Notes under the pieces: model-generated
What the model saw: only the letters and a program-made list of their open reading frames with translations
Told to the model about the DNA's origin: nothing
Databases searched by the model: none
Shown: positions 7,088 to 26,076 of the stretch, in pieces
Layout of the letters: each line of letters begins with the position of its first letter
Numbering within the stretch: the stretch's first letter is position 1
Made by a program: the position numbers and the translations under genes
From: Oscillatoriales cyanobacterium PMM_0008
Lineage (GTDB): Bacteria; Cyanobacteriota; Cyanobacteriia; Cyanobacteriales; Aerosakkonemataceae
Direction of reading: 5' to 3'
Length of the DNA stretch: 32,571 nucleotides
Assembly: GCA_949128025.1 (NCBI GenBank)
Contig: CASBRD010000145.1
Location: 1 to 32,571 of the forward strand

Positions 7088-8509
7088 GTGAAGCTACTAA
7101 TTGGTGGAATAGCTATTTTAGTTATACTATATCTTTCATTTTTCTACTGGAAAAGCGCTATTAAAACAGTATTGTTACTTGTCGTAATTGAAGGAGCATT
7201 GAGAAAATGGGTCTTGCCACAAGCAAGCGAATTAATTTATTTTTTGAAAGATTTCGTACTTTTGGGTGCTTATATTCGATACTATGGAACATTGGTTTTT
7301 CAAAAAAAGCTGGCGATTAAAAATAACTTCATTAATGTGATGTGTTTCCTGGCGGCAGGATGGTGCATATTTCAAGCTTTCAATCCAAGTTTGGGTTCGC
7401 CTATAGTCGGTATATTTGGATTAAAAGCCTACTTATTTTATACCCCATTAATGTGGATATTGACAGATGTATTTGAATCAGAATGGGAACTATATCAGTT
7501 TTTGCGATCGCACCTGTTGTTAATAATTCCAGTCGGAATTATCGGGGCAGTTCAATTTTTTAGTCCTCCTAGTAGCCCTATTAATTCCTATGCTCCCGGA
7601 CTAGAGGCAATCGGAGGAGTAGCCACATTTTCCAAATTTGCTCGGATTACAGGAACTTTTCCCTACATAAACAATTACGCATTATACCTGATTGTATGTT
7701 TTGGTTTATTGATAACTTTTCTTTCAATTAACCAGTCACGCTGGTGGAAGTTAGCCACTATAGGCGAAATTTTCATGGTAGTTATTAACCTAGCTATGAC
7801 TGGTTCTCGCAATCCTGTTATTAGTTCAGCATTATTTTTATGCTGTTATTTAGGTGCTAATTTTCTGACCAATCCTGCCAGAGGATTGCGTTATATTCGG
7901 CAATTTTTACCAATAGCTATTGTGCTTGCTATAGCTGCCTTGATATGGTTTCGACCAGCCATAGACGCCTTTTCAAATCGCGCCAGTTCTAATAATGACG
8001 TATCCCATCGCATTGAAAACAGTTTTACTGAGCCTTTACGCTTTTTTCAATATAAAGACCTTGATGGCTATGGCACTGGAGCAACACATGGAGCAACTCA
8101 ACAACTTCGTAACACACTTGGTTTACCACCAGGAGAGCCTATTGCCACAGGTTTTGAAGGAGAAATGGGTAGAATAGCCTTGGATCTAGGGCCTATAGGC
8201 TTTACTTTATGGTATGGATTTCGAGTTAGTATGATAATTGCCCTTTGGCAAGTTTTCTGGAAATTGCAAAAACCCTTCTTAAAGAATTTAGCAATCGCTG
8301 CTTGTCTAATCCAAGCTATCCAAATAGTAGGACAAGTTGTTACTCTCCATACCTTCTCAGTTTATTACTGGTTCCTCAGTAGCTTCATCTTTTTATTGCC
8401 TCGACTAGAACAAATGGCAAATTGGCAACAACAATTACAATGGTGGCAGATCAATGTCCAATCCACATATCACCCTAATTCATCCGATGGGCAATCCGAA
8501 TTCCCGTGA
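7088..8509 (+). CDS. O-antigen ligase/polymerase-like membrane protein
   Basis: The protein has 473 residues and around ten to twelve hydrophobic segments, with one long hydrophilic loop of roughly 75 residues in the last third (about residues 293-370, containing the RIENS and GTGATHGATQ segments). This layout matches Wzy polymerases and WaaL ligases, which join lipid-linked glycan units at the periplasmic face. The family is defined more by topology than by sequence, so polymerase and ligase cannot be separated here. The GTG start has GAGGGAG just upstream. The 3' end overlaps the next gene by 56 bases. Confidence 0.75.
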   Translation: MKLLIGGIAILVILYLSFFYWKSAIKTVLLLVVIEGALRKWVLPQASELIYFLKDFVLLGAYIRYYGTLVFQKKLAIKNNFINVMCFLAAGWCIFQAFNPSLGSPIVGIFGLKAYLFYTPLMWILTDVFESEWELYQFLRSHLLLIIPVGIIGAVQFFSPPSSPINSYAPGLEAIGGVATFSKFARITGTFPYINNYALYLIVCFGLLITFLSINQSRWWKLATIGEIFMVVINLAMTGSRNPVISSALFLCCYLGANFLTNPARGLRYIRQFLPIAIVLAIAALIWFRPAIDAFSNRASSNNDVSHRIENSFTEPLRFFQYKDLDGYGTGATHGATQQLRNTLGLPPGEPIATGFEGEMGRIALDLGPIGFTLWYGFRVSMIIALWQVFWKLQKPFLKNLAIAACLIQAIQIVGQVVTLHTFSVYYWFLSSFIFLLPRLEQMANWQQQLQWWQINVQSTYHPNSSDGQSEFP

Positions 8510-9728
8510 AGCTGCACTGGCTTTATGGGAGACTGGTTTACTCTACGAAATAATTACGACAATTGCCTACAATCCTAAAGGATGGGTGTCGCGCTACTTA
8601 AATTTACTGCCAAATCCAATTAAAAAACGAGTTGCTGATGAACTCGGACGCCGGACATGGATTGCCCCAAATGGTGTTTTTATTCGCAGTCATCCTTGGC
8701 AAGAAGCGATGCGAATAGCTTTAATCCGAACGGGATTAAACAAACGTTTAGGCTTTAGTTTACAACAAACTGTAGACTGGATTTATGCTGGGATCGATCG
8801 CCATGTCTCCCAGCATCATCTACAAGGTTTAGATGCCGTTTATGCTTATGAAGATGGAGCATCTGCCACATTTCAAGCTGCTAAACAGCAAGGGATTCTC
8901 TGCTTATACGATTTGCCTATTCTTTTTTATCGCATGAGTCGCGATATTCAAACTCAAGAAGCTAACCGCTTTCCAGAATTTGCCTCAGCGTTACAAGCAG
9001 CTAAAGAACCAGCTTGGAAAATTGAGCGAAAAGAACAGGAAATTCAGCTAGCAGACCACATTTTTGTAGCCTCATCATTTGTGAAAAATTCATTGCTGGA
9101 AGCAGGCATTAAAACCGAAAAAATTAGTGTAATTCCCTTTGGCGCACCTATTGATTATTTTACACCAAAACCTCATCAAGATAACCTATTTCGTGCTTTG
9201 TTTGTTGGTCGTATTGGGCCTCGTAAAGGCGTCCATTACTTATTGTCAGCATGGCAGGAATTGAAGTTACCAGAAGCAGAATTACTCCTGGTAGGACTTA
9301 ATGAATTTCCAGAGGGTTATTTAGAGCAATATAAACATGGTGTTAGGTATGTTTCCTCTGTTCCTCATACCTCATTAAACGATTACTATACCAGTGCGAA
9401 AGTTTTTGTTTTGCCAACTTTGGTCGAAGGACTTCCTCTCGTAGTATTAGAAGCAATGGCTTGCGGTATTCCCATTATTACTACGCCCAACTCAGGTGTG
9501 ACTGATATTATCACTAATGGGGTTGAGGGTTTAATCGTACCTGTTCGCGATGTAGAAGGGCTAAAGGAAAAACTTGAATGGTGTTATTGTCATCCTTTAG
9601 AATTAGCGGAAATGGGAAAAGCTGCTCGTCATAAAGCCGAACAGTTAACCTGGAATTTATATCGCCAAAAACTAGCGAATCGGGTTAAGGAAATTTTAGG
9701 TCATGGCAAAAATAGTCCATTAGTATAA
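8454..9728 (+). CDS. Glycosyltransferase family 4
   Basis: The protein has 424 residues. The donor domain opens with LFVGRIGPRKG (about 249-259), and the GT4 signature ExxxxxxxE is E325 and E333 within VEGLPLVVLEAMACGIP. These are retaining enzymes that use nucleotide sugars on the cytoplasmic face. I placed the start inside the previous gene because the residues encoded there (HITLIHP) form the first Rossmann strand; the next ATG at 8487 would remove it. The resulting 56-base overlap is larger than usual and suggests translational coupling. The 3' end overlaps by 28 bases, tail to tail, with the FkbM gene on the other strand. Confidence 0.88.
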   Translation: MSNPHITLIHPMGNPNSREAALALWETGLLYEIITTIAYNPKGWVSRYLNLLPNPIKKRVADELGRRTWIAPNGVFIRSHPWQEAMRIALIRTGLNKRLGFSLQQTVDWIYAGIDRHVSQHHLQGLDAVYAYEDGASATFQAAKQQGILCLYDLPILFYRMSRDIQTQEANRFPEFASALQAAKEPAWKIERKEQEIQLADHIFVASSFVKNSLLEAGIKTEKISVIPFGAPIDYFTPKPHQDNLFRALFVGRIGPRKGVHYLLSAWQELKLPEAELLLVGLNEFPEGYLEQYKHGVRYVSSVPHTSLNDYYTSAKVFVLPTLVEGLPLVVLEAMACGIPIITTPNSGVTDIITNGVEGLIVPVRDVEGLKEKLEWCYCHPLELAEMGKAARHKAEQLTWNLYRQKLANRVKEILGHGKNSPLV

Positions 9729-10504
9729 ACAGGTAACTGGGAAGGAATATATAGCTTTCCATTTGGCTTAAATAGGTGGCATTGATACCCAAAATTAGCT
9801 AAGTATTCTCTCACTCGCTGACCATTATCGGTCATTAGTTCAGCATAAATAGCGCGAATTCGCTTCTCCTTAATTAGTTGTTCTGCCCCTTGTAATGCAG
9901 GTATTTCATAACCTTCAACATCCAATTTCCACAAATCAACTTTTTCAATCGAACGTGCTGCTAATTCATCCGCCAGTCGGACAATTTGAATCGGTTCGCC
10001 TTCGGTTTCGGATACTTGGCACCAGTAACCGTGAATATAATCGGGGCCATGAGTACGCAGGCGGAGTTGAGTATTAGCTGCACCTAAACCACACCGAATC
10101 AGTTCTACGGGGAGTGTGGGATTAACAGCCAGACATTCGGCTAGCCAGTCTCCTTGCTCTTTTCCAGGCTCAAATGCCAACACTTTCCCTTGCGGTACGT
10201 ACTGAGCAAGATATAGTAGTATTTGACCAATGTTTGCACCAGAATCTACAATGATGGCATCTGACGGCAAAAATTGACGCGCCCAGTTAATAAACTCTGG
10301 GCCTTCGTATTTGCCATACACGATCCACCGATGGACGGGGTTTGCTAAATCCAGTTTCCAGGGGATGCCAGCAGCAGTATCAGCCCAACAAATTTTCTGA
10401 TTGGTGAGGGCTTTTCCGAATATGCGATCGCATATTCCCAATTTGTAAGGAAAGTCTACAGGTTGCAACCAAGTCAAGGGAAATGGCAAAGAAATAGTAT
10501 CCAT
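9701..10504 (-). CDS. FkbM family methyltransferase
   Basis: The protein has 267 residues. VDSGANIGQ at 86-94 is the SAM-binding loop in the form typical of FkbM enzymes, FEPG follows at 111-114, and WKLDVEGYEIPALQGAE matches the conserved C-terminal segment of the family. FkbM proteins are O-methyltransferases, often found in polysaccharide loci where they methylate sugar hydroxyls. This is the only minus-strand gene in the first 17 kb. Its end overlaps the preceding GT4 gene tail to tail, and its start lies only 36 bases from the start of the next plus-strand GT4 gene, so promoters for both must be very compact or lie inside the genes. Confidence 0.85.
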   Translation of the reverse strand: MDTISLPFPLTWLQPVDFPYKLGICDRIFGKALTNQKICWADTAAGIPWKLDLANPVHRWIVYGKYEGPEFINWARQFLPSDAIIVDSGANIGQILLYLAQYVPQGKVLAFEPGKEQGDWLAECLAVNPTLPVELIRCGLGAANTQLRLRTHGPDYIHGYWCQVSETEGEPIQIVRLADELAARSIEKVDLWKLDVEGYEIPALQGAEQLIKEKRIRAIYAELMTDNGQRVREYLANFGYQCHLFKPNGKLYIPSQLPVYTNGLFLP

Positions 10505-10540
10505 GTAAAATCCGTTTTTGGTTTCTAGACAATTAATCTA

Positions 10541-11728
10541 ATGATAACTCAGATAACTCCTAAAACTAAAAGTGCAATGTCTGTTAAATCACCCCTAATA
10601 CATCTATGGTTCCCTAATATCTTTCAATTTAAAGGTGGAATTCAAACTTACTCAGCTTTTTTGTTGGAAGCATTACAAAGTTTAGAGCCAGATATTAATT
10701 ATGATGTTTTCCTCAAACATGATACTTGTTCCTCTACAGATTTTTCTTTTTTACCTACTACCCGCTTCCACTTTGCCGGAACTACACCTCATATTTTACG
10801 CACGCCATTTTATGCTTCTCAACTAATTGGATATGGACTATGGCAAAGACCAAATTTAGTTATATCTACCCATCTCAATTTTACAATTGCTGCTTACTGG
10901 TTGAAACAAATGGCAAATATTCCCTATTGGGCCGTTGCTCATGGTGTTGATGCCTGGAATATTGAGCGTCCTGCTTTAAAAACTGCTCTCAGCCACGCCG
11001 ATCGCATTATCGCAGTAAGTGGCTACACTCGCGATCGCCTCTTGCAAGAGCAAAATCTTGACCCGGAAAAAGTGGTACTCTTGCCAAACACTTTTGACGC
11101 AAATCGCTTTAAAATTGCACCCAAGCCGGAATACTTGCTCAAACGTTATGGACTTACCGCCGATCATTCTATTATTCTAACAGTAGCTAGACTTGACAAG
11201 AGCGAACAATATAAAGGATATGATCAAATTATCCAAGCCTTATCTGAAATTCGTCATCAGATCCCAAATGTTCATTATATCTTAGTGGGCAAAGGAAACG
11301 ATTCCCATCGAATTATGCAGCTAATTACACAACTAGGTTTACAAGATTGTGTAACATTAACAGGGTTTATTCCCGATCAGGAATTGAACGATCATTACAA
11401 TCTTTGCGATGTTTTTGCAATGCCTAGCAAAGGAGAAGGATTTGGCATCGTTTATTTAGAAGCCTTGGCTTGTGGCAAACCTACTTTAGGAGGTAATCAA
11501 GATGGAGCAATTGATGCACTTTGTCAAGGTGAACTAGGAGCTTTAGTTGCTCCAGATAATCTGACAGAAATTAGCCAAACTATCGTGAATATTTTACAAG
11601 GTAATTATCCCAATCCTATCATGTATCAACCACAAAAATTACGTCAGAAAATAATCGAAATTTATGGCTTTGAAAAATTCAAACAAACCCTGGCAAAATT
11701 AATTGAAACCGCTGAAAAGAGAGGATAA
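10541..11728 (+). CDS. Glycosyltransferase family 4
   Basis: The protein has 395 residues. The acceptor domain begins with HLWFPNIFQFKGGIQTYSAF, a glycine-rich first loop, and the donor domain carries TVARLDKSEQYKGYD (about 214-228). The ExxxxxxxE signature is E299 and E307 within EGFGIVYLEALACGKP. It is a retaining GT-B enzyme of unknown specificity. A second in-frame ATG at 10577 would still keep the whole fold, and neither ATG has a clear ribosome binding site. The next GT4 gene starts three bases after its stop. Confidence 0.88.
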   Translation: MITQITPKTKSAMSVKSPLIHLWFPNIFQFKGGIQTYSAFLLEALQSLEPDINYDVFLKHDTCSSTDFSFLPTTRFHFAGTTPHILRTPFYASQLIGYGLWQRPNLVISTHLNFTIAAYWLKQMANIPYWAVAHGVDAWNIERPALKTALSHADRIIAVSGYTRDRLLQEQNLDPEKVVLLPNTFDANRFKIAPKPEYLLKRYGLTADHSIILTVARLDKSEQYKGYDQIIQALSEIRHQIPNVHYILVGKGNDSHRIMQLITQLGLQDCVTLTGFIPDQELNDHYNLCDVFAMPSKGEGFGIVYLEALACGKPTLGGNQDGAIDALCQGELGALVAPDNLTEISQTIVNILQGNYPNPIMYQPQKLRQKIIEIYGFEKFKQTLAKLIETAEKRG

Positions 11729-11731
11729 TAA

Positions 11732-12931
11732 GTGAAAGTTTTGCACGTTATTCCTTCCATCAGTCCCGCTATGGGTGGCCCTACACAAGTAGTTTTAAAT
11801 TTAGTTAAATCTTTGCGGGAATACGGGGTGGATGCAGAGATAGTCACTACTAATGATAATGGCGTTAATTTGTTAGATGTACCTCTGAATGAACGCATTG
11901 AATATGAGAAAGTACCAGTCTGGTTTTTGCCTCGGTTTTCTCCACCGTTGAAAGAGTATATTTTTTCGACTGCTATTACTCAATGGTTGTGGCAAAATAT
12001 CAGAAATTACGACATTTTAGATCACCATTATCTGTTTTCATACGCTTCTACTTGTTCTGCTGCGATCGCACGTTCTCAAAATATTCCCTATACAGTGCGG
12101 ACAATGGGACAACTTGCGCCTTGGGCACTAGCTCAAAGTCGCCTCAAAAAGCAAATCTATACCTTTCTAATTGAACGCAATAATTTAAATCGCGCCGCCG
12201 CCATTCATTGCACCTCAAATGGCGAAGCAGAAGATGTAAGAAACTTTGGGATCAAAACTCCTACAGTTACTCTACCATTAGGAGTAAATCCGCCAATATA
12301 TTGGCAGCACGCTAAACAAAAATTATGCGAAATATATGGTATTTCAATAGATGCGCCAATTGTTTTATTTCTTTCTCGTCTCCACTACAAGAAACGTCCA
12401 GATTTACTGATTCAATCCCTTGGCAAATTGGCAGAGGCAAATTATCAATTTCACCTGATATTAGCAGGTTCAGGAGAATCAGATTACCTCGCATACTTAG
12501 AAAATTTGGTATCATCTTTAGGTTTAGCAAATCGCACAACTTTTCCCGGCTTTGTGGTTGGGCAAGATAAAGAGATCATGTTGCAAGGATCGGATATATT
12601 TGTATTACCATCTTTTTCGGAAAATTTTGGGATTGCTGTTGCAGAAGCACTCGCTTATGGATTACCCGTAATCTTAACTCCAGATATCCAAATTGCCCCA
12701 GAAATTGCCGACGCGAAAGCAGGATTAGTTGTAACTGGGGAAATCGAACCGCTAGCAAATGCGATCGCGCAATTGCTAACATATCCCGAACAGCGGCAAA
12801 ATTTGGGAGAAAATGGGAAAAATCTGGTGAAATCTCGCTACTCCTGGAGTGCGATCGCTTCACCCCTTACCGACGTTTATCGCTCTATAATTGAAAAGAA
12901 AACACTTCCAAAAACAATCACTTTTTCCTAA
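11732..12931 (+). CDS. Glycosyltransferase family 4
   Basis: The protein has 399 residues. The N-terminus (LHVIPSISPAMGGPTQVVLN) is the classic GT4 first strand and glycine loop. The donor domain has LFLSRLHYKKRPDLL, and the ENFGIAVAE segment supplies the two glutamates of the ExxxxxxxE signature. The GTG start is preceded by GAGAGGA at the very end of the upstream gene, so the two genes are probably translated together. The next gene most likely begins at the ATG eight bases after this stop. Confidence 0.88.
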   Translation: MKVLHVIPSISPAMGGPTQVVLNLVKSLREYGVDAEIVTTNDNGVNLLDVPLNERIEYEKVPVWFLPRFSPPLKEYIFSTAITQWLWQNIRNYDILDHHYLFSYASTCSAAIARSQNIPYTVRTMGQLAPWALAQSRLKKQIYTFLIERNNLNRAAAIHCTSNGEAEDVRNFGIKTPTVTLPLGVNPPIYWQHAKQKLCEIYGISIDAPIVLFLSRLHYKKRPDLLIQSLGKLAEANYQFHLILAGSGESDYLAYLENLVSSLGLANRTTFPGFVVGQDKEIMLQGSDIFVLPSFSENFGIAVAEALAYGLPVILTPDIQIAPEIADAKAGLVVTGEIEPLANAIAQLLTYPEQRQNLGENGKNLVKSRYSWSAIASPLTDVYRSIIEKKTLPKTITFS

Positions 12932-12938
12932 CCCCAAA

Positions 12939-13667
12939 ATGTCCTACTCTCAACGTCTACTTGAACTGGGTAATCCCCTAACTCGCCTAGCACATCGCTC
13001 TCGTTTTAGCGCTGTTCTCAATATCCTTGGCCATACTAAATATAGCCAAGCACTCGATTATGGCTGCGGCGACGGTTGGTTGCTCAAAACCGCTTACGAT
13101 CAAGGCATAATCCATTCTGGAATCGGCGTTGATGTCGCCGACTATATGCTATCAGCTTGCCAGGAAATTTTTGCTGGTATATCAGACTTTCAATTCGGCA
13201 AACCAGATGAAATATCTAAAAAAATATCCCCCAAAAGTTGCGATTTAATTTTTTGTACTGAAACTCTAGAACATATCGGTAATCCTGACGGAGCTTTGGA
13301 GCAAATTTTGATTTATTGCCAGCCAGGAGCAAAATTAGTAATTTCCGTGCCAATCGAAATAGGGCCATCACTTTTATTCAAACAAATTGGGCGTTATTTT
13401 GCCAACCTAAAAGGCAATTATGGCTACGAACGTTATACATTAAAAGAGTTGTTTGATGCTACAATTTTATGGAAGGCTAATACTTTTCCATCATCTCATT
13501 CGGAGAATTCCGAATATACGGGACATAAAGGATTTGATTATCGGAAACTGGAAAAATTGCTCCAAGAAAAAGTCAAAATCGAGCGGCGAATTTTCTCGCC
13601 GTTTCCCTGGAGTGGCAATCTGCTTAACAGCACGGTAATTTGGGTATGTAGCGTCAAAAGTTCCTAA
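12939..13667 (+). CDS. Class I SAM-dependent methyltransferase
   Basis: The protein has 242 residues from the chosen start. ALDYGCGDG at 38-46 is motif I, GVDVADYML carries the acid after strand 2, and CTETLEHIGNP at about 106-116 is the usual post-II segment. I chose the ATG at 12939, eight bases after the previous stop; a TTG at 12891 would overlap the GT4 gene by 41 bases and add residues unlike the family. It is the third class I methyltransferase of the cluster besides the FkbM enzyme, so the glycan is probably heavily methylated (inference). Its acceptor is unknown. Confidence 0.8.
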   Translation: MSYSQRLLELGNPLTRLAHRSRFSAVLNILGHTKYSQALDYGCGDGWLLKTAYDQGIIHSGIGVDVADYMLSACQEIFAGISDFQFGKPDEISKKISPKSCDLIFCTETLEHIGNPDGALEQILIYCQPGAKLVISVPIEIGPSLLFKQIGRYFANLKGNYGYERYTLKELFDATILWKANTFPSSHSENSEYTGHKGFDYRKLEKLLQEKVKIERRIFSPFPWSGNLLNSTVIWVCSVKSS

Positions 13668-13676
13668 GCTCGGCTG

Positions 13677-14264
13677 ATGTTTTTACGCCCTAAATTTAAG
13701 CGATTTCGGCTATTTTGTTTAGTTAGTGCTACTTTTTTCGCGGTTCTAGTTAGCATAATTCCGGTGCGACTAGCGATCGCAAATCTGCAAGCACCCCAAC
13801 CCCAAGCTATACTAACTCTCGGTAGCTGGCTAGATCGTGAAGTATTCACCGCCCAATTCGCCTTAGAACATCCTAATCTAGAAATATGGGTTTCTACCGG
13901 CACACCGCCAGAATCTGCTAACCCCATTTTTCGCGCCTTTGGTATCCCAGAAAACAGAGTACATCTTGACCGTCGTGCCGTCGATACTGTTACAAACTTT
14001 ACAACTTTAGTGGCTGATTTTAAATCTCGCCAGATTCAACATCTCTACATGATTACCTCCGCTTATCATATGCCACGAGCGAAAGCGATCGCTACTCTAA
14101 TTCTTGGCAGCCAAGGCATTACCTTCACCCCCGTTAGCCTTCCATCGGGAGAACCACCAGAATCTCGACTTCGCATTATTCGCGATATTGGTCGTTCCTT
14201 ACTTTGGATTGTGACAGGTCGTACTGGAGCAAATCTCAATCCTAACTTACAGGCTTCCCGATGA
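13677..14264 (+). CDS. YdcF/ElyC-type DUF218 protein
   Basis: The protein has 195 residues. One membrane segment lies near the N-terminus (about 10-32). It is followed by AILTLGS, by DTVTNFTTL, and by MITSAYHMPRA, which are the conserved blocks of DUF218 proteins. ElyC in Escherichia coli affects envelope and peptidoglycan metabolism; the biochemical activity of the family is poorly defined. The downstream SGNH hydrolase gene overlaps its last four bases (ATGA), so the two are almost certainly co-translated. A link to the upstream polysaccharide genes is suggested by position only. Confidence 0.8.
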   Translation: MFLRPKFKRFRLFCLVSATFFAVLVSIIPVRLAIANLQAPQPQAILTLGSWLDREVFTAQFALEHPNLEIWVSTGTPPESANPIFRAFGIPENRVHLDRRAVDTVTNFTTLVADFKSRQIQHLYMITSAYHMPRAKAIATLILGSQGITFTPVSLPSGEPPESRLRIIRDIGRSLLWIVTGRTGANLNPNLQASR

Positions 14265-15271
14265 AAATAAAAGCCAAATACTGGATACCCGGTTTAATAG
14301 TTGGAATCTTTACTTTCACCGAATTAACATTACGACTAGGTTTTGGATTCGGCAATCCAGTTTTATCACAAGCTGACCCTTATACTGGCTACCGATTTCA
14401 ACCCAATCAAAAAATATTTCGATTTGGCAAAAATGTTCAGTATAACCAATACTCTCAACGTTCCGAACCAATTACCCTTAAAAAACTGCCTGGAAAACTC
14501 AGAATATTAATGACCGGCGACTCAGTTCTTAACGGTGGTAATCCTACAGATCAGAGTCAAACTATTACAGAACTTTTTGAGACAAAACTATCTGTATCTG
14601 GACATCCGGCTGAAGTTCTCAACGCCTCAGCCGGTTCTTGGGGAATTGGGAACGCATTGGGATATCTGCGGGAATTCGGTACTTTTAACGCGGATGCAGT
14701 CATTCTGCAAATTGGAACTCACGATCTAACTCAGCCTACCAGTACTAGCGATGTGGTTGGGCATCACCCATCTTATCCCACCCATCCCCCACTGCTGGCA
14801 ATTCAGGAAGCTTGGACTCGCTACGCTTGGCCGAACTTAGCTCTTAGGTTAGGGCTTAACGCTACCTCAAGCGATCTCCCTCCGCCTACATCTTCCAACC
14901 CGGATGGGCAGTTTAAGCAGAATATGGAGAGCTTAAAACAGATAGTGAAGCTGGTTCGGGCTAAGAAAATACCAGTTTTTGTTTTATATACACCAAATTT
15001 TGATGACGTAGTGCCGACACCTAAGCAGCCTCAGTACAAATCCGCGTTTTTACGGTTGCTAAAAAGTTTACAGGTTCCTATGATTGACAGTCATGCCGCT
15101 TGGTCAACTTTGCCACCAAAGACGGTAGAAACATATTTTCGAGATTGGGTGCATCTGACCGAGCCAGGAAATCAAGCTTTAGCCCAAAAGCTGTTCGATC
15201 GACTCTGTGTAGCTCGCCAGTTACCAGCCTGCCTACCTAAGAAGCCTCCTCCAAAGCCAACCAGCCCCTGA
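14261..15271 (+). CDS. SGNH/GDSL-family hydrolase, membrane-anchored
   Basis: The protein has 336 residues. A hydrophobic segment at about 9-26 looks like a signal anchor, placing the catalytic domain outside the cytoplasm. Block I is TGDSVLNGG with the nucleophile Ser88; block II is the glycine in SAGSWGIGN; block III is GTHDL at about 152-156, where His replaces the usual Asn; and block V is DWVHLT near residue 295, with the catalytic Asp and His. SGNH enzymes remove or transfer acyl groups, so modification of a surface glycan is plausible. The C-terminus ends in a proline- and lysine-rich tail. The gene overlaps the YdcF gene by four bases. Confidence 0.8.
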   Translation: MKIKAKYWIPGLIVGIFTFTELTLRLGFGFGNPVLSQADPYTGYRFQPNQKIFRFGKNVQYNQYSQRSEPITLKKLPGKLRILMTGDSVLNGGNPTDQSQTITELFETKLSVSGHPAEVLNASAGSWGIGNALGYLREFGTFNADAVILQIGTHDLTQPTSTSDVVGHHPSYPTHPPLLAIQEAWTRYAWPNLALRLGLNATSSDLPPPTSSNPDGQFKQNMESLKQIVKLVRAKKIPVFVLYTPNFDDVVPTPKQPQYKSAFLRLLKSLQVPMIDSHAAWSTLPPKTVETYFRDWVHLTEPGNQALAQKLFDRLCVARQLPACLPKKPPPKPTSP

Positions 15272-15827
15272 CCGAGTTGATTTTAAATTTTGGAATAGCA
15301 CACTCACTGCTGACGCGCTACCGCGAGAGTACGGATTTGGCAACGCTGATCTATATTTATACACTCTCTTCAGTAGGATATCCGGAATAATGGCGGAGTG
15401 TTTTGTAGAGGTTATAGGTAAAGTACTTTACCCAGGGGGGGATAGAGCTACCTGATTCTGAACACCGCGAAATAGCTCACTATGTACAAAACTGGGATTT
15501 CAGACGGGTTTAAAAAACTACCCCAAAAGGGCTGATGTCAGTTACTGCACTGCGTTAGATCCTTTCGCCGAAATTAAAGGCTTTACCAGGAAGCGCTACA
15601 CCCCGCCTTGCTTCCTCCCTCCTCATTCTTGTGAGGGGGTATCCAACGGGGAACCCTCAGTAAACGAATTTAGGGATGAAGGTTTGGGACGCTAAAGATC
15701 GAGCTTCTCAACCCAGATCTCCCCTTCTTTTGGCTGGATATGGAAAAATTAACAGTCCTGCGGGAAGGGATTGCTCTGGTTGCGTCATTATTTTTTTGAC
15801 CTCATAGAAACCTTTAGGGCATGATAA
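15272..15827. other. 556-base gap with structured sequence, no gene seen
   Basis: No convincing reading frame occurs on either strand. The stretch contains a perfect 16-base palindrome at 15417-15432, an inverted repeat AGGAAGC/GCTTCCT at 15588-15594 and 15610-15616, and a small CCTCA/TGAGG hairpin just after it. It separates the SGNH hydrolase from the WbuB-like glycosyltransferase, so it probably contains the promoter and a long leader of the latter. I recognise no known riboswitch. Confidence 0.5.
15417..15432. repeat. Perfect 16-base palindrome
   Basis: GGTAAAGTACTTTACC reads the same on both strands. It lies about 400 bases upstream of the WbuB-like glycosyltransferase in a gene-free stretch. 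It could be an operator for a dimeric regulator; nothing in the window identifies that regulator. Confidence 0.5.
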
Positions 15828-17204
15828 ATGGGAATTCTACAAGGGGAACATACGTTGCACCAGTTCTTGACTCAGTTGCACCAGTTAGTGACTCAGCCGC
15901 AAGGTGGCACAAGTAATGGAAATATTCCAAAACAGCAGCATCCAGTGAGACTATCTATCATTACCCAGTTTTATCCGCCGGACTATGCCGCTACCGGGCA
16001 GCTGATCGAAGAGTTAGCCGATCGGTTGAGGCTTGAAGGTGTATATGTCCACATCTTTACGGGACAGCCTGGATACGCCTTCCAAAAAGAAACGGCTCCA
16101 ACGATCGAACGAAAAGACAAGATGCTGATTAGGCGATCGCGCACCGGGAGGCTTTGGCCCCGACGGATTCGCGGTAAAGCCGTCAACGGCCTGTTATTTT
16201 GTGTGCGATCGGCATTTCATTTACTCAAAAACTGTTGGCGAGGCGACGTTTTACTAATTACCACCGCACCCCCCTTCTTACCCCTGCTGGGCTACCTAGC
16301 CCACCTCTGCTTTGGCTTGCCCTATGTGTGTTTGCTGTACGATCTATATCCCGATGTCGCAGTCGAACTGCAAGTCGTCCCCGTTCACCACTGGTTAGTT
16401 CGCTTGTGGAACCTAGTTAACCAACAAATCTGGAAAAATGCCAAGGGGGTTATAGTCCTCAGCCCCTCTATGAAAGAGCGTATCGTAGCCAAATGTCCAG
16501 AAGTAGCTGACAAGGTTGCCGTGATTCACAGCTGGGCCGATCCGAGTTGGATCGTACCTATCCCCAAACAAAATAACTGGTTTGCCCAGCAATACGACCT
16601 GGTAGAGAAATTTACGGTTCTCTACTCCGGCAACATGGGTCGCTGTCACGATATGGAGACAATTATGGAAGTGGCGAAACTTCTGGAAGATGAGCCGATC
16701 CAGTTTGTCTTTATTGGCGATGGCGCAAAGCGTCAGGCTACTAAGGAGCAAATTGCCGCTATGGGTTTGAAGAATTGTCTCCTCTTACCCTATCAGGACA
16801 AGCAGAACCTTCCTCACTCCCTGACTGCTTGCGACTTATCTTTAGTCAGCATCAGTCCGGGGATGGAAGGATTGGTCGCTCCCAGCAAGCTTTACGGCAT
16901 TTTAGCGGCTGGACGTCCGGTGGGAGTGATTTGTGAAGAAGGTTCCTATTTATGCCAGCTGATTGAGCAAGCTAAATGCGGTGAAACCTTCAACAATGGA
17001 GACGCAACGGGGCTAGCTAATTTTATTCGCCGCTTGGCTAGCGATACTCAGTTGGCTCATCAGATGGGTAAGGCTGGTCGTTGCTACCTCAAATCAAACT
17101 TTACGCTGGAAATTATTGCCCAGCAATACTCAGAGGTATTGAACCAAGCCTTATTGACAGACGTGAAATCAGAAGACTCGATCGCTGTTACAGAAGCTCA
17201 TTAA
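15828..17204 (+). CDS. WbuB-like glycosyltransferase family 4
   Basis: The protein has 458 residues. The GT-B core starts at about residue 41 with LSIITQFYPPDYAATGQLIEEL, a segment typical of WbuB-like enzymes. The donor domain begins at LYSGNMGRCHDME, and APSKLYGILAAGRPVGV replaces the classic ExxxxxxxE signature, as is normal in this subgroup. The first 40 residues are an unusual, Gln-rich extension containing two copies of a heptapeptide (LHQFLTQ, LHQLVTQ). An in-frame GTG at 15945 would skip the extension but lacks a ribosome binding site, whereas AGGG lies upstream of 15828. WbuB-type enzymes transfer amino sugars during O-antigen synthesis; specificity here is unknown. Confidence 0.85.
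   Translation: MGILQGEHTLHQFLTQLHQLVTQPQGGTSNGNIPKQQHPVRLSIITQFYPPDYAATGQLIEELADRLRLEGVYVHIFTGQPGYAFQKETAPTIERKDKMLIRRSRTGRLWPRRIRGKAVNGLLFCVRSAFHLLKNCWRGDVLLITTAPPFLPLLGYLAHLCFGLPYVCLLYDLYPDVAVELQVVPVHHWLVRLWNLVNQQIWKNAKGVIVLSPSMKERIVAKCPEVADKVAVIHSWADPSWIVPIPKQNNWFAQQYDLVEKFTVLYSGNMGRCHDMETIMEVAKLLEDEPIQFVFIGDGAKRQATKEQIAAMGLKNCLLLPYQDKQNLPHSLTACDLSLVSISPGMEGLVAPSKLYGILAAGRPVGVICEEGSYLCQLIEQAKCGETFNNGDATGLANFIRRLASDTQLAHQMGKAGRCYLKSNFTLEIIAQQYSEVLNQALLTDVKSEDSIAVTEAH
15855..15896 (+). repeat. Two tandem 21-base repeats inside a glycosyltransferase gene
   Basis: The units at 15855-15875 and 15876-15896 differ at two of 21 positions and keep the reading frame. They encode LHQFLTQ and LHQLVTQ in the N-terminal extension of the WbuB-like enzyme. 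Confidence 0.8.
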
Positions 17205-18340: not shown

Positions 18341-19081
18341 TCAATAAATGTGTAGGTCATAACAGCTTTCTGGAAGAGATTCTCCTTTCTGTAGAATGGC
18401 ATCTGCCAAAAGACTGAGGTTATCATCCAGATTTTTTGGATTGACGCTCAATAGCAGTCCTCTGGTTATACCCCAATAACGGAGAGTTGCTTCCCAATGA
18501 TCCTTTTTATTTGCCAACCATTCAGGAGAACTTATCGTCATTTGAACGCATAACGGTTCATCCGAGTTCCCGCTAGTCAGTAAGTCGGTCGCCATCGACA
18601 AATCGATGATATAGCGCCATAAACAAGCGCCTCCAGAACTTTCTATTTGAGCGGAAAGGGCATTGATTAATCTTACATCTTGCTGAGTGTATTCTCCTGA
18701 CATCATCTTACTTTTCCATGTGTCAAGTTTTGGATCGCACTCGTTAAACCATTGAGGAAATAAAAACTCATACCAGTATTTCTCAGCTTGTGTCATTTGA
18801 GCTTTTTCCAAAAACCTCTGCTTTTCTTGTGAGGGTAATTGTTTAAGCTTGAGCCACAATCTAGTATCTAAAATCAGTTCGCTCACAAAGTCAAGTAGCA
18901 AGGGCTTTCTTGTCAGTAGGCCAACTTTTTTGTCCTTAATCCAACGGCGGAGTTCATCTAGCCGTTTAGCCAAAGCAGGATCTATCAACAAAGCATCGTT
19001 AATCAGGGATTCTAGTTCAGCCTTAATATATTTTGCTTGTAAGCGCTGTGTTAACAAATGTGAACTCCCAACAGTCGCCAC
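18341..19081 (-). CDS. Hypothetical protein, 246 residues
   Basis: I recognise no family. The protein looks cytoplasmic and mostly helical, with Leu/Lys-rich N-terminal helices (the RWIKDKKVGLLTRKPLLLDF region), then a Trp-rich middle (KYWYEFLFPQWFNECD) and a Cys-Leu-Trp segment (SSGGACLWRYIIDLS). It has no signal peptide. The start is a GTG at 19081 with a weak GGGG upstream; no better start is available early in the frame. Its partner gene follows after 13 bases. Both sit next to a MazEF pair but read as a separate unit. Confidence 0.6.
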   Translation of the reverse strand: MATVGSSHLLTQRLQAKYIKAELESLINDALLIDPALAKRLDELRRWIKDKKVGLLTRKPLLLDFVSELILDTRLWLKLKQLPSQEKQRFLEKAQMTQAEKYWYEFLFPQWFNECDPKLDTWKSKMMSGEYTQQDVRLINALSAQIESSGGACLWRYIIDLSMATDLLTSGNSDEPLCVQMTISSPEWLANKKDHWEATLRYWGITRGLLLSVNPKNLDDNLSLLADAILQKGESLPESCYDLHIY

Positions 19082-19258: not shown

Positions 19259-19588
19259 TCACTCAGCAAACATCTCAGCCAAGGTATCGAGAACTCCTCT
19301 TTGCTCATCGGGGCTGATTTGACCGAGGTGTTTGACCAATCGAGTTTTGTCTACTGTTCGGATCTGATCGAGAACAATTTGCCCATCTTTGCCCTGAAAC
19401 TGACAAACTATACGAGTGGGATATGCTTGACCCTTGGTGGTCATTGGTGCAACGATGACGGTAGCAATGTGGTGGTTCATCTCATCTGGCGAAATCACTA
19501 CACAGGGTCGGGTTTTCTGAATTTCACTGCCTACTGTAGGATCTAGATTAACTAGAAAAACATCGAAACGTTGGCCTACCATTCCCAT
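19259..19588 (-). CDS. mazF: MazF/PemK-family mRNA interferase toxin
   Basis: The protein has 109 residues. DVFLVNLDPTVGSEIQKTRP is the family's N-terminal signature, with the catalytic Arg in KTRPCVVIS, and VAPMTTK carries the second conserved Thr. C-terminal ISPDEQRGVLDTLAEMF matches the last helix. These toxins cut mRNA at short sequences when free of antitoxin. The gene overlaps the end of the antitoxin gene by 13 bases, the usual coupled order with antitoxin first. It appears intact. An open frame on the opposite strand over this gene is only a shadow. Confidence 0.92.
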   Translation of the reverse strand: MGMVGQRFDVFLVNLDPTVGSEIQKTRPCVVISPDEMNHHIATVIVAPMTTKGQAYPTRIVCQFQGKDGQIVLDQIRTVDKTRLVKHLGQISPDEQRGVLDTLAEMFAE

Positions 19589-19836
19589 TCAACTCGCTCC
19601 CAGTTTGTAGTGCTTACATCATCTAGGAGAACATCATCTTTTTGATATGCCATTGTTGCAAATGCTTCATTCCATCCTACACGCGATCGCGTTGCTGGGC
19701 GAACAATAAGGCGATCGCCTTCCACCTCAATTTCAACTTCTTCGTGAATACCGCTTTGCTCTAAAAGCGGTTTAGGAATACGAATGCCTTGAGAGTTGCC
19801 GATTTTAACAATTCGGCTTCTGATTGTTGCGCCCAT
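19576..19836 (-). CDS. mazE: MazE-like antitoxin, AbrB/SpoVT DNA-binding
   Basis: The protein has 86 residues. The N-terminal swapped-hairpin domain is clear: IRSRIVKIGNSQGIRIPKPLLEQSGI, then EVEIEVEGDRLIVRP. The acidic and aromatic C-terminus (DDVLLDDV and the final Trp-rich residues) would wrap the toxin. MazE binds MazF and represses the operon. The ATG at 19836 lies 26 bases below a likely transcription start. The toxin gene overlaps its last 13 bases. Confidence 0.9.
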   Translation of the reverse strand: MGATIRSRIVKIGNSQGIRIPKPLLEQSGIHEEVEIEVEGDRLIVRPATRSRVGWNEAFATMAYQKDDVLLDDVSTTNWERVEWEW

Positions 19837-23525: not shown

Positions 23526-24719
23526 TTAAGATTCTTTAGGCAAAAACAAACTTTCCAAAATTTCCTCTTTCACTTCTGAGCTAACATTAGCAGCACCGAT
23601 ACACTCTAGTAGCAGCTTATTATCAGCATAATACTGTTTAAGCAAATCTTTTTGCTGATCACTGAACTGCAAATTGTGACCGATCGCTAATCTTAATTGC
23701 TTAAGCCAATTTTCACCGTTAGCTTTTCGCCAAGTCTCAAATCTTTCTTTTTCTTCCTTCGGATCTGGCATTTCAGCTTGTAGTTTTTGCAGCGCTTGTT
23801 TCAGTTCAGGTTCAAAGTTAATAGCATAGATAGATGCAAGAACATTTGCGGGAGAGAGATTAGGATTAGCGTTAAAGGCAAGGTCAAGAGCAATATCATT
23901 GGCACGACTAAAGTTAGTAGCAAACTGACGAGCTTTAGCACCTCCACGATTAGGGTCAAAATTACGGGCAAAAGCACGACCAAGGATACGGATTAAGACC
24001 AGGTAAAAAGCTCTAACTTTTCTTGGCTTGTAAGAAGAATCAACTGATAGAGATTTCTGTTTTACCCAGGTAAGAAGTTGCTGAAATTCCTCATTACCAT
24101 CAACTAAGGAATCAATTTGTCGTTTCATCTGCCATAATAGTTGAGTGGCTTCGTCAGCATTCATATTGCTAACTGCCAATAAACTATCTGCTGGCAATTG
24201 TTGTTCTCCTATAGAACTATCTGTCAATAGTGCGTCTACAGCATTAGCAATGAAGTGCTTAACAAGCCAGTCACGGGTAGGAGAAAAATCACGGTTAAAG
24301 TGCAGGTAAATGGCACCCAACAAAGCTTCAAACATCTCAGCAAAGAGATCCTTTTGCTCACTTTCATCTTTCGTCTCCTCGCTTCGCCCAAGCAAACATA
24401 ACTGCCTTAGATTCAAATTTAGTGCAAATTCATAAGCCTTATTTCTCCTCACAAGGTCACTTTTCCATAGCGTTAGCTCACCTTGATTTAGATTGTGAAA
24501 TTTTTCATGTAAGTAGTCGATGACAACAGCACCGAGAATCGAGTCTCCTAGTATTGCGAGCCGTCTGTATTCACGCTCCTGTAAATCTTGTTGTTGCCGA
24601 TTCAGGCTGGGGTTTTCGTAGATGTACGACGAATGAGTCAGGGCAATTTCAAGCAGCTTTATTTGGTCAAAGTCGGGGATAGCGATCGCTTTTTTAACAG
24701 CTTCGATGTTTACAGTCAT
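23526..24719 (-). CDS. RNase III-domain protein with unknown C-terminal half
   Basis: The protein has 397 residues. Residues about 20-160 form an RNase III domain: IALTHSSY (25-32), YRRLAILGDSILG (51-63), GELTLWKSDLVRR (80-92), and FAEMFEALLGAIYL (126-139). Against the E. coli enzyme, the second catalytic Asp (Asp59) and the last Glu (Glu131) are kept, the third acid is Glu128 instead of Asp, and the first Glu of the NERLEFLGD motif is Arg52. There is no double-stranded RNA-binding domain. Instead about 230 residues of unrecognised helical sequence follow. The ATG at 24719 has AAGGAG upstream; earlier starts would overlap sufS. It lies 94 bases after sufS, beyond a hairpin, so it may be a separate unit. 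Confidence 0.75.
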   Translation of the reverse strand: MTVNIEAVKKAIAIPDFDQIKLLEIALTHSSYIYENPSLNRQQQDLQEREYRRLAILGDSILGAVVIDYLHEKFHNLNQGELTLWKSDLVRRNKAYEFALNLNLRQLCLLGRSEETKDESEQKDLFAEMFEALLGAIYLHFNRDFSPTRDWLVKHFIANAVDALLTDSSIGEQQLPADSLLAVSNMNADEATQLLWQMKRQIDSLVDGNEEFQQLLTWVKQKSLSVDSSYKPRKVRAFYLVLIRILGRAFARNFDPNRGGAKARQFATNFSRANDIALDLAFNANPNLSPANVLASIYAINFEPELKQALQKLQAEMPDPKEEKERFETWRKANGENWLKQLRLAIGHNLQFSDQQKDLLKQYYADNKLLLECIGAANVSSEVKEEILESLFLPKES

Positions 24720-24813: not shown

Positions 24814-26076
24814 TTACCCAAAAATCCCACCAAAAAAGTCGATCGCCTCCTTCAACGCCGCAATAAACACATCAATCTCTTCCCGCGTGTTGTAGAAATA
24901 CAAACTCGCTCTCGCAGTAGACTGAGCCTTTATATAACGGTGTAAAGGTTGAGTACAATGATGCCCAGCCCTAATAGCAACCCCAGCTTGATCTAGAATC
25001 GTAGACAAGTCATGTGGATGCACTTCACCAGCAGTGAAAGCAGCGAGTGCGGCTCTACCTTCGCCATTACTATTAGGTTGTGGCCCATAAAGTCGAAGTT
25101 CGGGAATTTGTCGCAATTGTTCAAATAAATATGCTGTCAATTCTGCTTCGTAAGCGTGGATTTTATCCATGCCAATATTGGTGAGATAATCAACAGCAGC
25201 ACCGAGTCCGATCGCAGAAGCGATCGCAGGCGTTCCCGCTTCAAACTTATGCGGCAAATCAGCATAAGTAGAATGCTCTAAAAACACATCCGCAATCATT
25301 TCTCCACCACCCATAAAGGGAGGCATTGCTCGCAGCACATCTCGCTTACCATAGAGGAAGCCGATACCAGTAGGCCCACACATCTTGTGGCTGGAAGCAA
25401 CTAGCCAATCGCAATCAATTTGCTGCACGTCGATAGCCAAATGAGGCACGCTTTGGCAGGCATCAATTAATACTTTCGATCCGTAGTGGTGAGCAATTTC
25501 GGTAATCTCTTTCACCGGATTAATACAGCCAAGCGTGTTGGAAACGTGAACCAGAGAAACCAGTTTTGTTTTATCCGAAACCAGCGTTTTGTAATGAGCG
25601 AAATCAAATTCTTGGTTTGGTGTCAGTTCCACAAATTTAAGTACTGCGCCAGTGGTTTTGGCGACAAGTTGCCAAGGAACTAAATTGCTGTGGTGTTCCA
25701 TCACCGAAAGGATAACTTCATCTCCCGGTTGCAAATTTGTTAGTCCCCAAGCATAAGCTACTAAGTTAATTGCCTCGGAAGCATTGCGCGTGTAAATAAT
25801 TTCCTGGGGGAAAGTTGCATTAACAAATTTAGCAATTTTTTCCCTAGCACCTTCATAAGCATCTGTCGCCCTAGCACTAAGGGTATGAGCGCCGCGATGC
25901 ACGTTAGAATTATCATGTTCGTAATAATTTCGCAGCGCATCCAGAACCGCCACAGGTTTTTGCGAGGTGGCGGCGTTATCTAAATAAACTAAAGGTTTGC
26001 CGTTAACTTCTTGCTTCAAAATGGGGAAGTCAGCACGGACGCGATCGGCTAATGTTTTTTCTTGAGTAATAGTCAT
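24814..26076 (-). CDS. sufS: Cysteine desulfurase SufS
   Basis: SufS is the PLP enzyme that takes sulfur from cysteine for iron-sulfur cluster assembly. The protein has 420 residues. Lys231 in [11 protein letters not shown] binds [11 protein letters not shown] (205-212) holds the pyridine-contacting Asp, and Cys374 in RAGHHCTQP carries the persulfide. RASLYFYNT is the conserved C-terminal substrate segment. It is the last gene of the sufB-C-D-S series on this strand and is separated from sufD by 126 bases rich in repeats, so it may have a promoter of its own. No sufE partner gene is in view. Confidence 0.95.

Follow-up and report, generated by a model that had tools for sequence, protein, structure and literature searches.

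The RNase III fold normally dimerises and lies on double-stranded RNA, and F41 and E37 form the ball-and-socket contact of the dimer. Inactive members of the fold are known from organelles, among them RNC1 of plant chloroplasts and mitoribosomal proteins such as mL44 and mL57. In the Escherichia coli enzyme the metal ligands are E41, D45, D114 and E117 (PMC3839596). The E. coli substitutions E41A, E38A and D114A show weak activity in excess magnesium, D45A shows low or no activity, and E117A, E117K (rnc70) and E117Q show none and retain dsRNA binding (PMC8708148, Table 1). In cyanobacteria, Anabaena 7120 has two RNase IIIs and one Mini-III (PMC10989914), and the words 'NACHT' and 'catalytically inactive' do not occur in that text. 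A trio of vWA, PP2C and kinase genes has been described in actinobacterial conflict systems (PMC7159879); 'RNase III' occurs neither in that paper nor in PMC8195603.

Here we describe P0001, a protein in which a degenerate RNase III domain is joined to the tail of cyanobacterial NACHT proteins. No description of such an RNase III-NCH protein was found in the open-access papers searched. The gene lies in the window, that is, the whole stretch of 32,571 nucleotides analysed from Oscillatoriales cyanobacterium PMM_0008.

The two halves of P0001

The 397-aa frame runs without interruption from 24719 to 23526 on the minus strand, and its ATG at 24719 agrees with the ortholog start points; frame 1 of the plus strand has numerous stops across the same stretch. 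Comparison with an 82% identical ortholog gave a dN/dS of about 0.29 (dN 0.091, dS 0.311). The features of the gene are collected in Table 1.

Table 1. Coordinates of the P0001 gene, its parts and the adjacent gene in the window
Feature	Position	Strand	Basis or remark
CDS, degenerate RNase III-NCH protein P0001	23526..24719	-	Open frame, ortholog starts, dN/dS; 397 aa + stop
RNase III-like domain, residues 1-165	24225..24719	-	Pfam/NCBIfam; AF2 model vs 2nug
Degenerate signature RRLAILGD, residues 52-59 (canonical ERLEFLGD)	24543..24566	-	Alignment columns, 10 full-length-type and 22 catalytic-type rows
Second acidic motif EMFE, residues 128-131	24327..24338	-	Alignment columns; D107 = E128, E110 = E131
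NACHT-tail region, residues 176-397, all-helical	23529..24194	-	Identity to C269; AF2 model
First conserved helical tail block, residues 190-239	24003..24152	-	47% mean identity, 43 NACHT-length rows
Hypervariable block, residues 240-304	23808..24002	-	18% mean identity; low-confidence stretch in both models
NCH2 domain PF22727, residues 306-394	23538..23804	-	E 6.6e-27; 98.3 bits in genome search
sufS	24814..26076	-	Directly upstream of the P0001 gene, 94-base gap; end of sufBCDS cluster

The N-terminal half matched PF14622 (1.8e-22) and PF00636 (2.9e-17) in Pfam and, over residues 16-159, TIGR02191 in NCBIfam (4.9e-29), where its 101.4 bits against an equivalog cut-off of 166.25 mean that P0001 fails the equivalog test. 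PF22935, the mL44 endonuclease domain, appeared as a weak secondary match (1.4e-4), below its cut-off. Structural matches also assigned the RNase III fold: the best was Aquifex RNase III (2nug; Z 19.8, rmsd 1.7 over 145 residues, VIA-align), and bacterial and Dicer RNase IIIs scored higher than the mitoribosomal chains (Z 15.2-16.6). The AF2 model of the whole protein, based on a 16-row alignment, had a pLDDT of 77.9 and a pTM of 0.48, so the relative placement of the two halves is unreliable. The absence of a dsRNA-binding domain, asserted in the preliminary description of this DNA, was borne out, as neither Pfam nor NCBIfam matched one in P0001. The protein thus has neither the class I layout, with a C-terminal dsRBD, nor the Mini-III layout of an RNase III domain alone; its tail is NCH2.

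That C-terminal half had been called unplaceable, but it could be placed as a NACHT tail. NCH2 (PF22727, NACHT C-terminal helical domain 2) matched with 93.9 bits against a cut-off of 27, and residues 186-394 share 40% identity with the tail of the own-genome C269 protein, which has an HTH-NACHT-NCH2 architecture (L153:2667-4979). Residues from about 180 to 394 align with the C-terminal ends of frames of 750-800 aa, both in this genome and in related ones; the own genome encodes four 750-800-aa proteins with such a tail, and the two that were scanned (C269 = L020/L153 and C212 = L031) both have a NACHT domain. P0001 shares the helical tail of ~215 aa with these cyanobacterial HTH-NACHT-NCH2 proteins, which are NLR-like STAND NTPases; unlike them, it has no HTH and no NACHT NTPase domain (PF05729, no match up to E 10). 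The profile search of this half returned the NACHT-associated helical tail and no known RNA-binding domain of a described RNase III subfamily.

Within the tail, the second conserved block (residues 305-394, 45% mean identity in the 43 NACHT-length rows) is separated from the first by a hypervariable block whose length ranges from 63 to 122 aa in those rows. Folded alone with AF2, the tail is all-helical (pLDDT 80.9, pTM 0.75); Foldseek found no match for this structure at E <= 0.001 (best 0.52), and VIA-align gave Z values of at most 6.3, within the tool's common range for helical bundles. A match between NLRP3 (605-683) and the tail profile among PDB sequences was attractive in position but not significant (E 0.24), and was not used. 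In some NCH tails, for example L081:10001-10774, the hypervariable block contains short A-, L- and D-rich repeats, which suggests repeat expansion as a source of diversity.

Upstream of P0001 lie what we take, from their sequences, to be suf genes. A suf cluster is likewise upstream in L117 and L065, there with one extra intervening gene, and these three are the full-length loci with suf genes upstream. Elsewhere in the window, positions 8454-17204 hold several glycosyltransferase genes and a GDSL lipase-like gene, probably for polysaccharide biosynthesis, and 19259-19836 (-) holds a MazE/MazF-like toxin-antitoxin pair, named from the sequences.

The ORF at 18344-19081 (-) was considered as a linked partner of P0001 and rejected. 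It encodes 246 aa without a Pfam match, is single-copy in the genome, and is 39-45% identical to a ~230-aa protein encoded beside the tandem genes described below. Homologs occur in 16 of 26 other genomes; they are absent from the full-length loci of G004 and G329, lying on another contig in the former and ~2 Mb away in the latter, and in 4 of 6 loci the homolog is followed by a ~160-aa protein that matches the N-terminus of the tandem protein only (within residues 6-125). Given this wide spread, the distance from the full-length gene and the ~160-aa partner of its own, its proximity to P0001 is probably chance.

The active site and the degenerate family

Alignment columns are named here by Aquifex residue numbers. 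The alignment held 22 catalytic-type RNase III domains from the phylum, including the own-genome RNase IIIs and no row identified as Mini-III, and 10 distinct full-length-type members, that is, proteins built like P0001. At E40 (E41 in E. coli), all 22 catalytic-type rows have E and the 10 full-length-type rows have A (9) or S (1), with Ala55 in P0001; at E37 (E38 in E. coli), all 22 have E or D and all 10 have R, which is Arg52 in P0001. In the F41 column (P0001 56, Ile), F stands in 21 of the 22 catalytic-type rows, against I (9) or L (1) in the full-length type, and the E64 column has Q in nine of the 10 full-length-type rows, against E in 17 and V in 5 catalytic-type rows. D44 and E110 are kept in all 10, as Asp59 and Glu131 in P0001. 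The D107 column is E in all 10; among the catalytic-type rows it varies between N (7), D (7), S (6) and C (2). Set against the E. coli ligands, P0001 has A55 at E41 and E128 at D114 and keeps D59 and E131: two ligands kept, one lost and one changed from D to E, hence not the full set. Four orthologs, 52-82% identical to P0001, carry the same active-site changes, which, together with the dN/dS, makes these changes more than chance.

The residues Asp59, Glu131, Arg52 and Glu128 had all been read correctly in the preliminary description. Its statement that Arg52 replaces the first catalytic glutamate holds for the residue but not for the position, since Arg52 stands at E37/E38, and the metal-binding E40/E41, which is Ala55, had been missed. 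Glu128 does stand in for an aspartate, as stated, and it carries little weight, because 15 of the 22 catalytic-type rows have N, S or C in the D107 column. The proposal of an RNase III-like protein with changed activity gains support beyond its own argument, as E40 and E37 are both lost. As far as the alignment tells, the metal site of P0001 is damaged and not erased, so that little or no catalytic activity is likely.

The D114 position of E. coli is called highly conserved. In our alignment, however, 13 of the 22 catalytic-type rows carry N or S there, for example N in the own-genome L001.

Whether the genome also has an ordinary RNase III, a check proposed alongside the preliminary description, was answered by the PF14622 genome search, which found L001 (399 aa) and L003 (240 aa). 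Both have E37, E40, D44 and E110 intact and, by eye, a dsRBD-like stretch at the C-terminal end. With bacterial class I RNase III and Mini-III, P0001 shares the fold, D44 and E110 and the conserved surrounding motif; it differs from them in the missing E40 and E37, the lack of a matched dsRBD, the NACHT-type tail, and a place in the tree apart from the 22 catalytic-type rows.

This tree of 88 RNase III domains, from which identical domains, L039 and L068 (their genomes being represented by L065 and L040) and L044 were removed, separates 66 degenerate from 22 catalytic-type domains (100/99), at a point where, as the tool warned, long branches meet. The degenerate set contains the full-length RNase III-NCH type (10 distinct; L071 lacks the last ~70 residues), single-domain proteins of ~215 aa, which keep D44 in L121-L124 and have lost it in 11 rows (L046/L100 type), and 20 tandem proteins, ~340 or ~590 aa long, in which one RNase III domain follows another; nine of these 20 also have an NCH tail. 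In bacteria it is unusual for one protein to carry two RNase III domains. The set also contains one GUN4 fusion, L103 (PF05419 5.8e-41), the GUN4 domain being described as a tetrapyrrole sensor (PMC7159879).

In the tandem proteins, D44 is lost from both domains. Domain 1 lacks E40 as well as D44 in 20 of 20; domain 2 is shortened, which makes its columns less certain, and shows E at the E40 position in 14 of 20 and K/K in the D107/E110 columns in 17 of 20 (K/Q in 2, K/H in 1). No degenerate row keeps E40, D44 and E110 together where these are covered (L124 is without the E40 stretch). Tandem domain 2 joins the full-length type (95/88) and nests inside it on a long branch (1.31), so that here the full-length proteins alone do not make up a clade.

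The tail tree had 65 rows, with duplicates, the truncated L071 and rows that do not span the tail left out. In it, a single clade (99/85) unites the full-length and the tandem fusions with a tail-only protein of G005, and the sister group of this clade (100/98) consists of three NACHT-type proteins, one of them the own-genome C269; the bootstrap of this tree was unsettled (0.919). The fusion clade spans named records of Nostocaceae, Microcoleaceae and Coleofasciculaceae, and both halves are complete in nine distinct members. The simplest history would be that a degenerate RNase III was joined to a NACHT tail once.

The tandem relatives recall Drosha and Dicer in having two RNase III domains in a row; they differ in that both domains are degenerate and that no helicase, PAZ or dsRBD was matched in those scanned, and P0001 itself has a single RNase III domain. 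The degenerate fold also resembles the effector-associated adaptor domains (EADs) of cyanobacterial conflict systems, being small, placed in several architectures (NCH, GUN4, alone) and in some genomes encoded beside NACHT or defence genes. EADs, however, occur on both the effector and the sensor of one system, whereas the degenerate RNase III is known here from architecture and neighbours. Among the matches listed in the order scan, which was not a search designed for this, no frame longer than 700 aa had an RNase III-only match.

Distribution and genomic company

The order scan covered 388 genomes drawn from a larger group, the own genome included, with at most four candidates scored per genome. 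Among the matches listed, intact full-length copies were present in G000, G004, G266, G099 and G329, that is, in at least 5 of the 388 genomes, while the G377 copy has three stops inside the match, G257 has only fragments on two contigs, and G005 has a split pair. At L120:439-1074 and G005:C62:10396-12294, the NACHT-tail half is in G005 a separate 212-aa gene, whose contig carries, by eye, recombinase-like and cytosine-methyltransferase-like genes and also a second DrmA match. A scan of named genomes gave 25 loci, 7 of them with the RNase III half (Coleofasciculus, four Nostoc/Anabaena records, Symplocastrum and Cylindrospermum); two of the 7 coincide with order-scan copies. In the phylum search of 386 genomes, full-length proteins among the matches listed were confined to the order (G000, G099, G329). 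Of 72,556 plasmid records 42 matched, none covering 80% of the query, and the best 15 of these 42 included RNase III-half matches on two Calothrix plasmids, one of them, a single-domain relative, labelled 'ribonuclease III'.

Three relatives stand among immunity genes. In G005, the degenerate RNase III L121 lies between DrmMI and DrmA of a complete DISARM anti-phage operon (L121:1043-14546), 28 bases from DrmMI, in the order DrmMI (1843 bits), RNase III, two small genes, a small opposite ORF, DrmA (1144), DrmB (265) and DrmC (404); its residues at E37, E40, D44, D107 and E110 are K, A, D, E and K. L122 follows an HKD-SNF2 helicase gene (231 bits) after 100 bases, in a same-strand run with DEDDh-type (42 bits), HEC-05-like (160), BstA-like (85) and type IIG enzyme (435) genes. 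At L161:5848-9839 (G011) the GUN4 fusion (L103/L161) is divergent from an HTH-NACHT-HEAT gene, with 113 bases between the starts, and this neighbour has a weak NCC-H tail match. Against this picture, L123 has an HEC-05-like gene only at ~5.7 kb and L124 a weak LeoA-like match, and at L125-L127 and L100-L102 the neighbours look metabolic by eye.

The tandem genes sit in an operon-like run of VWA, PP2C, membrane protein, ~230-aa protein, tandem RNase III and kinase. Neighbourhoods were compared for 16 of the 20 loci (L104:4024-11778 of G041, L090-L099 and L105-L109, leaving out L045, L052, L057 and L062); several stretches are short, and VWA was present in 6 of 6 long ones, PP2C in 11 of 16, the ~230-aa protein in 15 of 16 and the kinase in 14 of 16, L108 having no kinase despite a long flank. 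A vWA-PP2C-kinase trio of this kind goes by the name TerY-P triad. PADLOC gave nothing at E <= 0.01 for five of the six proteins of the L104 operon and weak kinase-type matches for the kinase.

No common defence context was found at the full-length loci, where neighbourhoods differ and members are sparse. An alpha/beta-hydrolase-like family lies near L066, L067 and L119, and no other partner is common to the remaining full-length loci. Downstream of full-length orthologs there are a MafB19-like deaminase with Imm1 (L117:11934-12742) and an Imm1 gene (L065:7784-8224). No PADLOC model matches P0001 at E <= 0.01, and the own genome gave no match to DrmA, nor to the tandem-operon kinase in a search without a positive control. 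The defence-gene company of the relatives is a set of associations without a matched control and not an enrichment test; for several relatives it points to NLR-like defence and signalling, where the preliminary description had suggested an RNA-binding or RNA-processing factor.

Possible functions of P0001

According to the above-described analysis, we favour with middling confidence the reading that P0001 works in defence or stress signalling as an adaptor or sensor, in which an RNase III fold with no catalytic activity, or at most a feeble one, is fused to a NACHT tail. The RNase III fold would serve as an interaction platform for a protein partner or dsRNA, and RNA binding by P0001 may be possible judging from the fold. 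The NCH tail, which in NACHT proteins sits at the position of the helical and sensing C-terminus of NLRs, would either recognise whatever cue the HTH-NACHT protein of the same genome (C269) recognises or dock onto that protein. In this way P0001, without an NTPase of its own, could feed into, set the threshold of, or compete with an NLR-type defence switch. The DISARM-embedded L121 speaks for an adaptor, since its Lys at E110 is a change that stops cleavage and not binding in E. coli. Against an adaptor stand D44 and E110, whose loss hurts most in E. coli and which are kept in 10 of 10 full-length-type rows together with an acid at D107, and against a defence role stands the place of the window gene after sufS, outside any defence operon.

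The same retained acids are an argument that P0001 is still a nuclease, whose reduced metal site (D59, E128, E131) cuts structured RNA while the NACHT-type tail gates a toxic effector. Their fixation contrasts with the loss of D44 in the short L046/L100 rows and the tandem domains, the dN/dS is ~0.29, and in E. coli the E41A and E38A enzymes keep weak activity in excess Mg2+ (PMC8708148). We nevertheless consider this reading unlikely, given that E40 is lost and E37 is Arg in all 10 rows and that the E64 column is Gln in 9 of 10; moreover, sister groups without D44 persist and the DISARM copy has Lys at E110, which argues that the fold is kept without a full metal site. It is more doubtful still that P0001 is a structural or RNA-chaperone factor like RNC1 or mL44, binding house-keeping RNA, with the NCH tail adding a helical bundle. 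Such proteins, RNC1 being compared by description, combine an RNase III fold with lost catalytic residues, which P0001 may share in part, having two of the four metal ligands kept, one lost and one changed; PF22935 was matched weakly, below its cut-off, the mitoribosomal chains were matched as well, and the two inactive RNase III domains of RNC1 (PMC8708148) have a counterpart in the tandem relatives. P0001, however, is bacterial, its tail is a NACHT tail, some of its relatives stand in defence operons, the bacterial and Dicer RNase IIIs outscore the mitoribosomal chains, and the patchy presence of intact copies, at least 5 among the 388 genomes by the matches listed, does not suit a house-keeping role.

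Since RNase III domains act as dimers and the genome encodes two possible partners, P0001 might also be a dominant-negative subunit that forms heterodimers with the cell's own RNase III under control of the tail; we hold this to be very improbable, because the ball-and-socket residues F41 and E37 are both changed in 10 of 10 (I in nine and L in one at column 56, R at column 52), which argues against the usual dimer interface. Least probable of all, and in our judgement hardly credible, is a chance fusion or decaying gene without function: the protein is rare, the G377 copy has stops, G257 only fragments and L071 a truncated end, but nine distinct members have both halves complete, the dN/dS is about 0.29, and the fusions form one tail clade across three families.

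Returning to the adaptor reading, we put forward a wider version of it only tentatively and with more doubt than trust, namely that the dead RNase III fold is a mobile adaptor or sensor in a cyanobacterial NLR-type conflict network, paired once or twice over with NACHT tails, with GUN4 or with a VWA-PP2C-kinase operon and inserted into DISARM, and may sense viral dsRNA without cutting it. If true, this would be a bacterial counterpart of RNA sensors that do not catalyse, attached to the tail of an NLR. Because the NACHT tail keeps its frame constant on both sides of a hypervariable block, a model of ligand recognition can be put to the test. The 'ribonuclease III' label on the Calothrix plasmid relative is also a warning for annotation. 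The family described here, a bacterial clade without the full catalytic set that includes tandem proteins, NLR tails and some members in anti-phage operons, would bring an RNA-shaped input to bacterial NLR biology.
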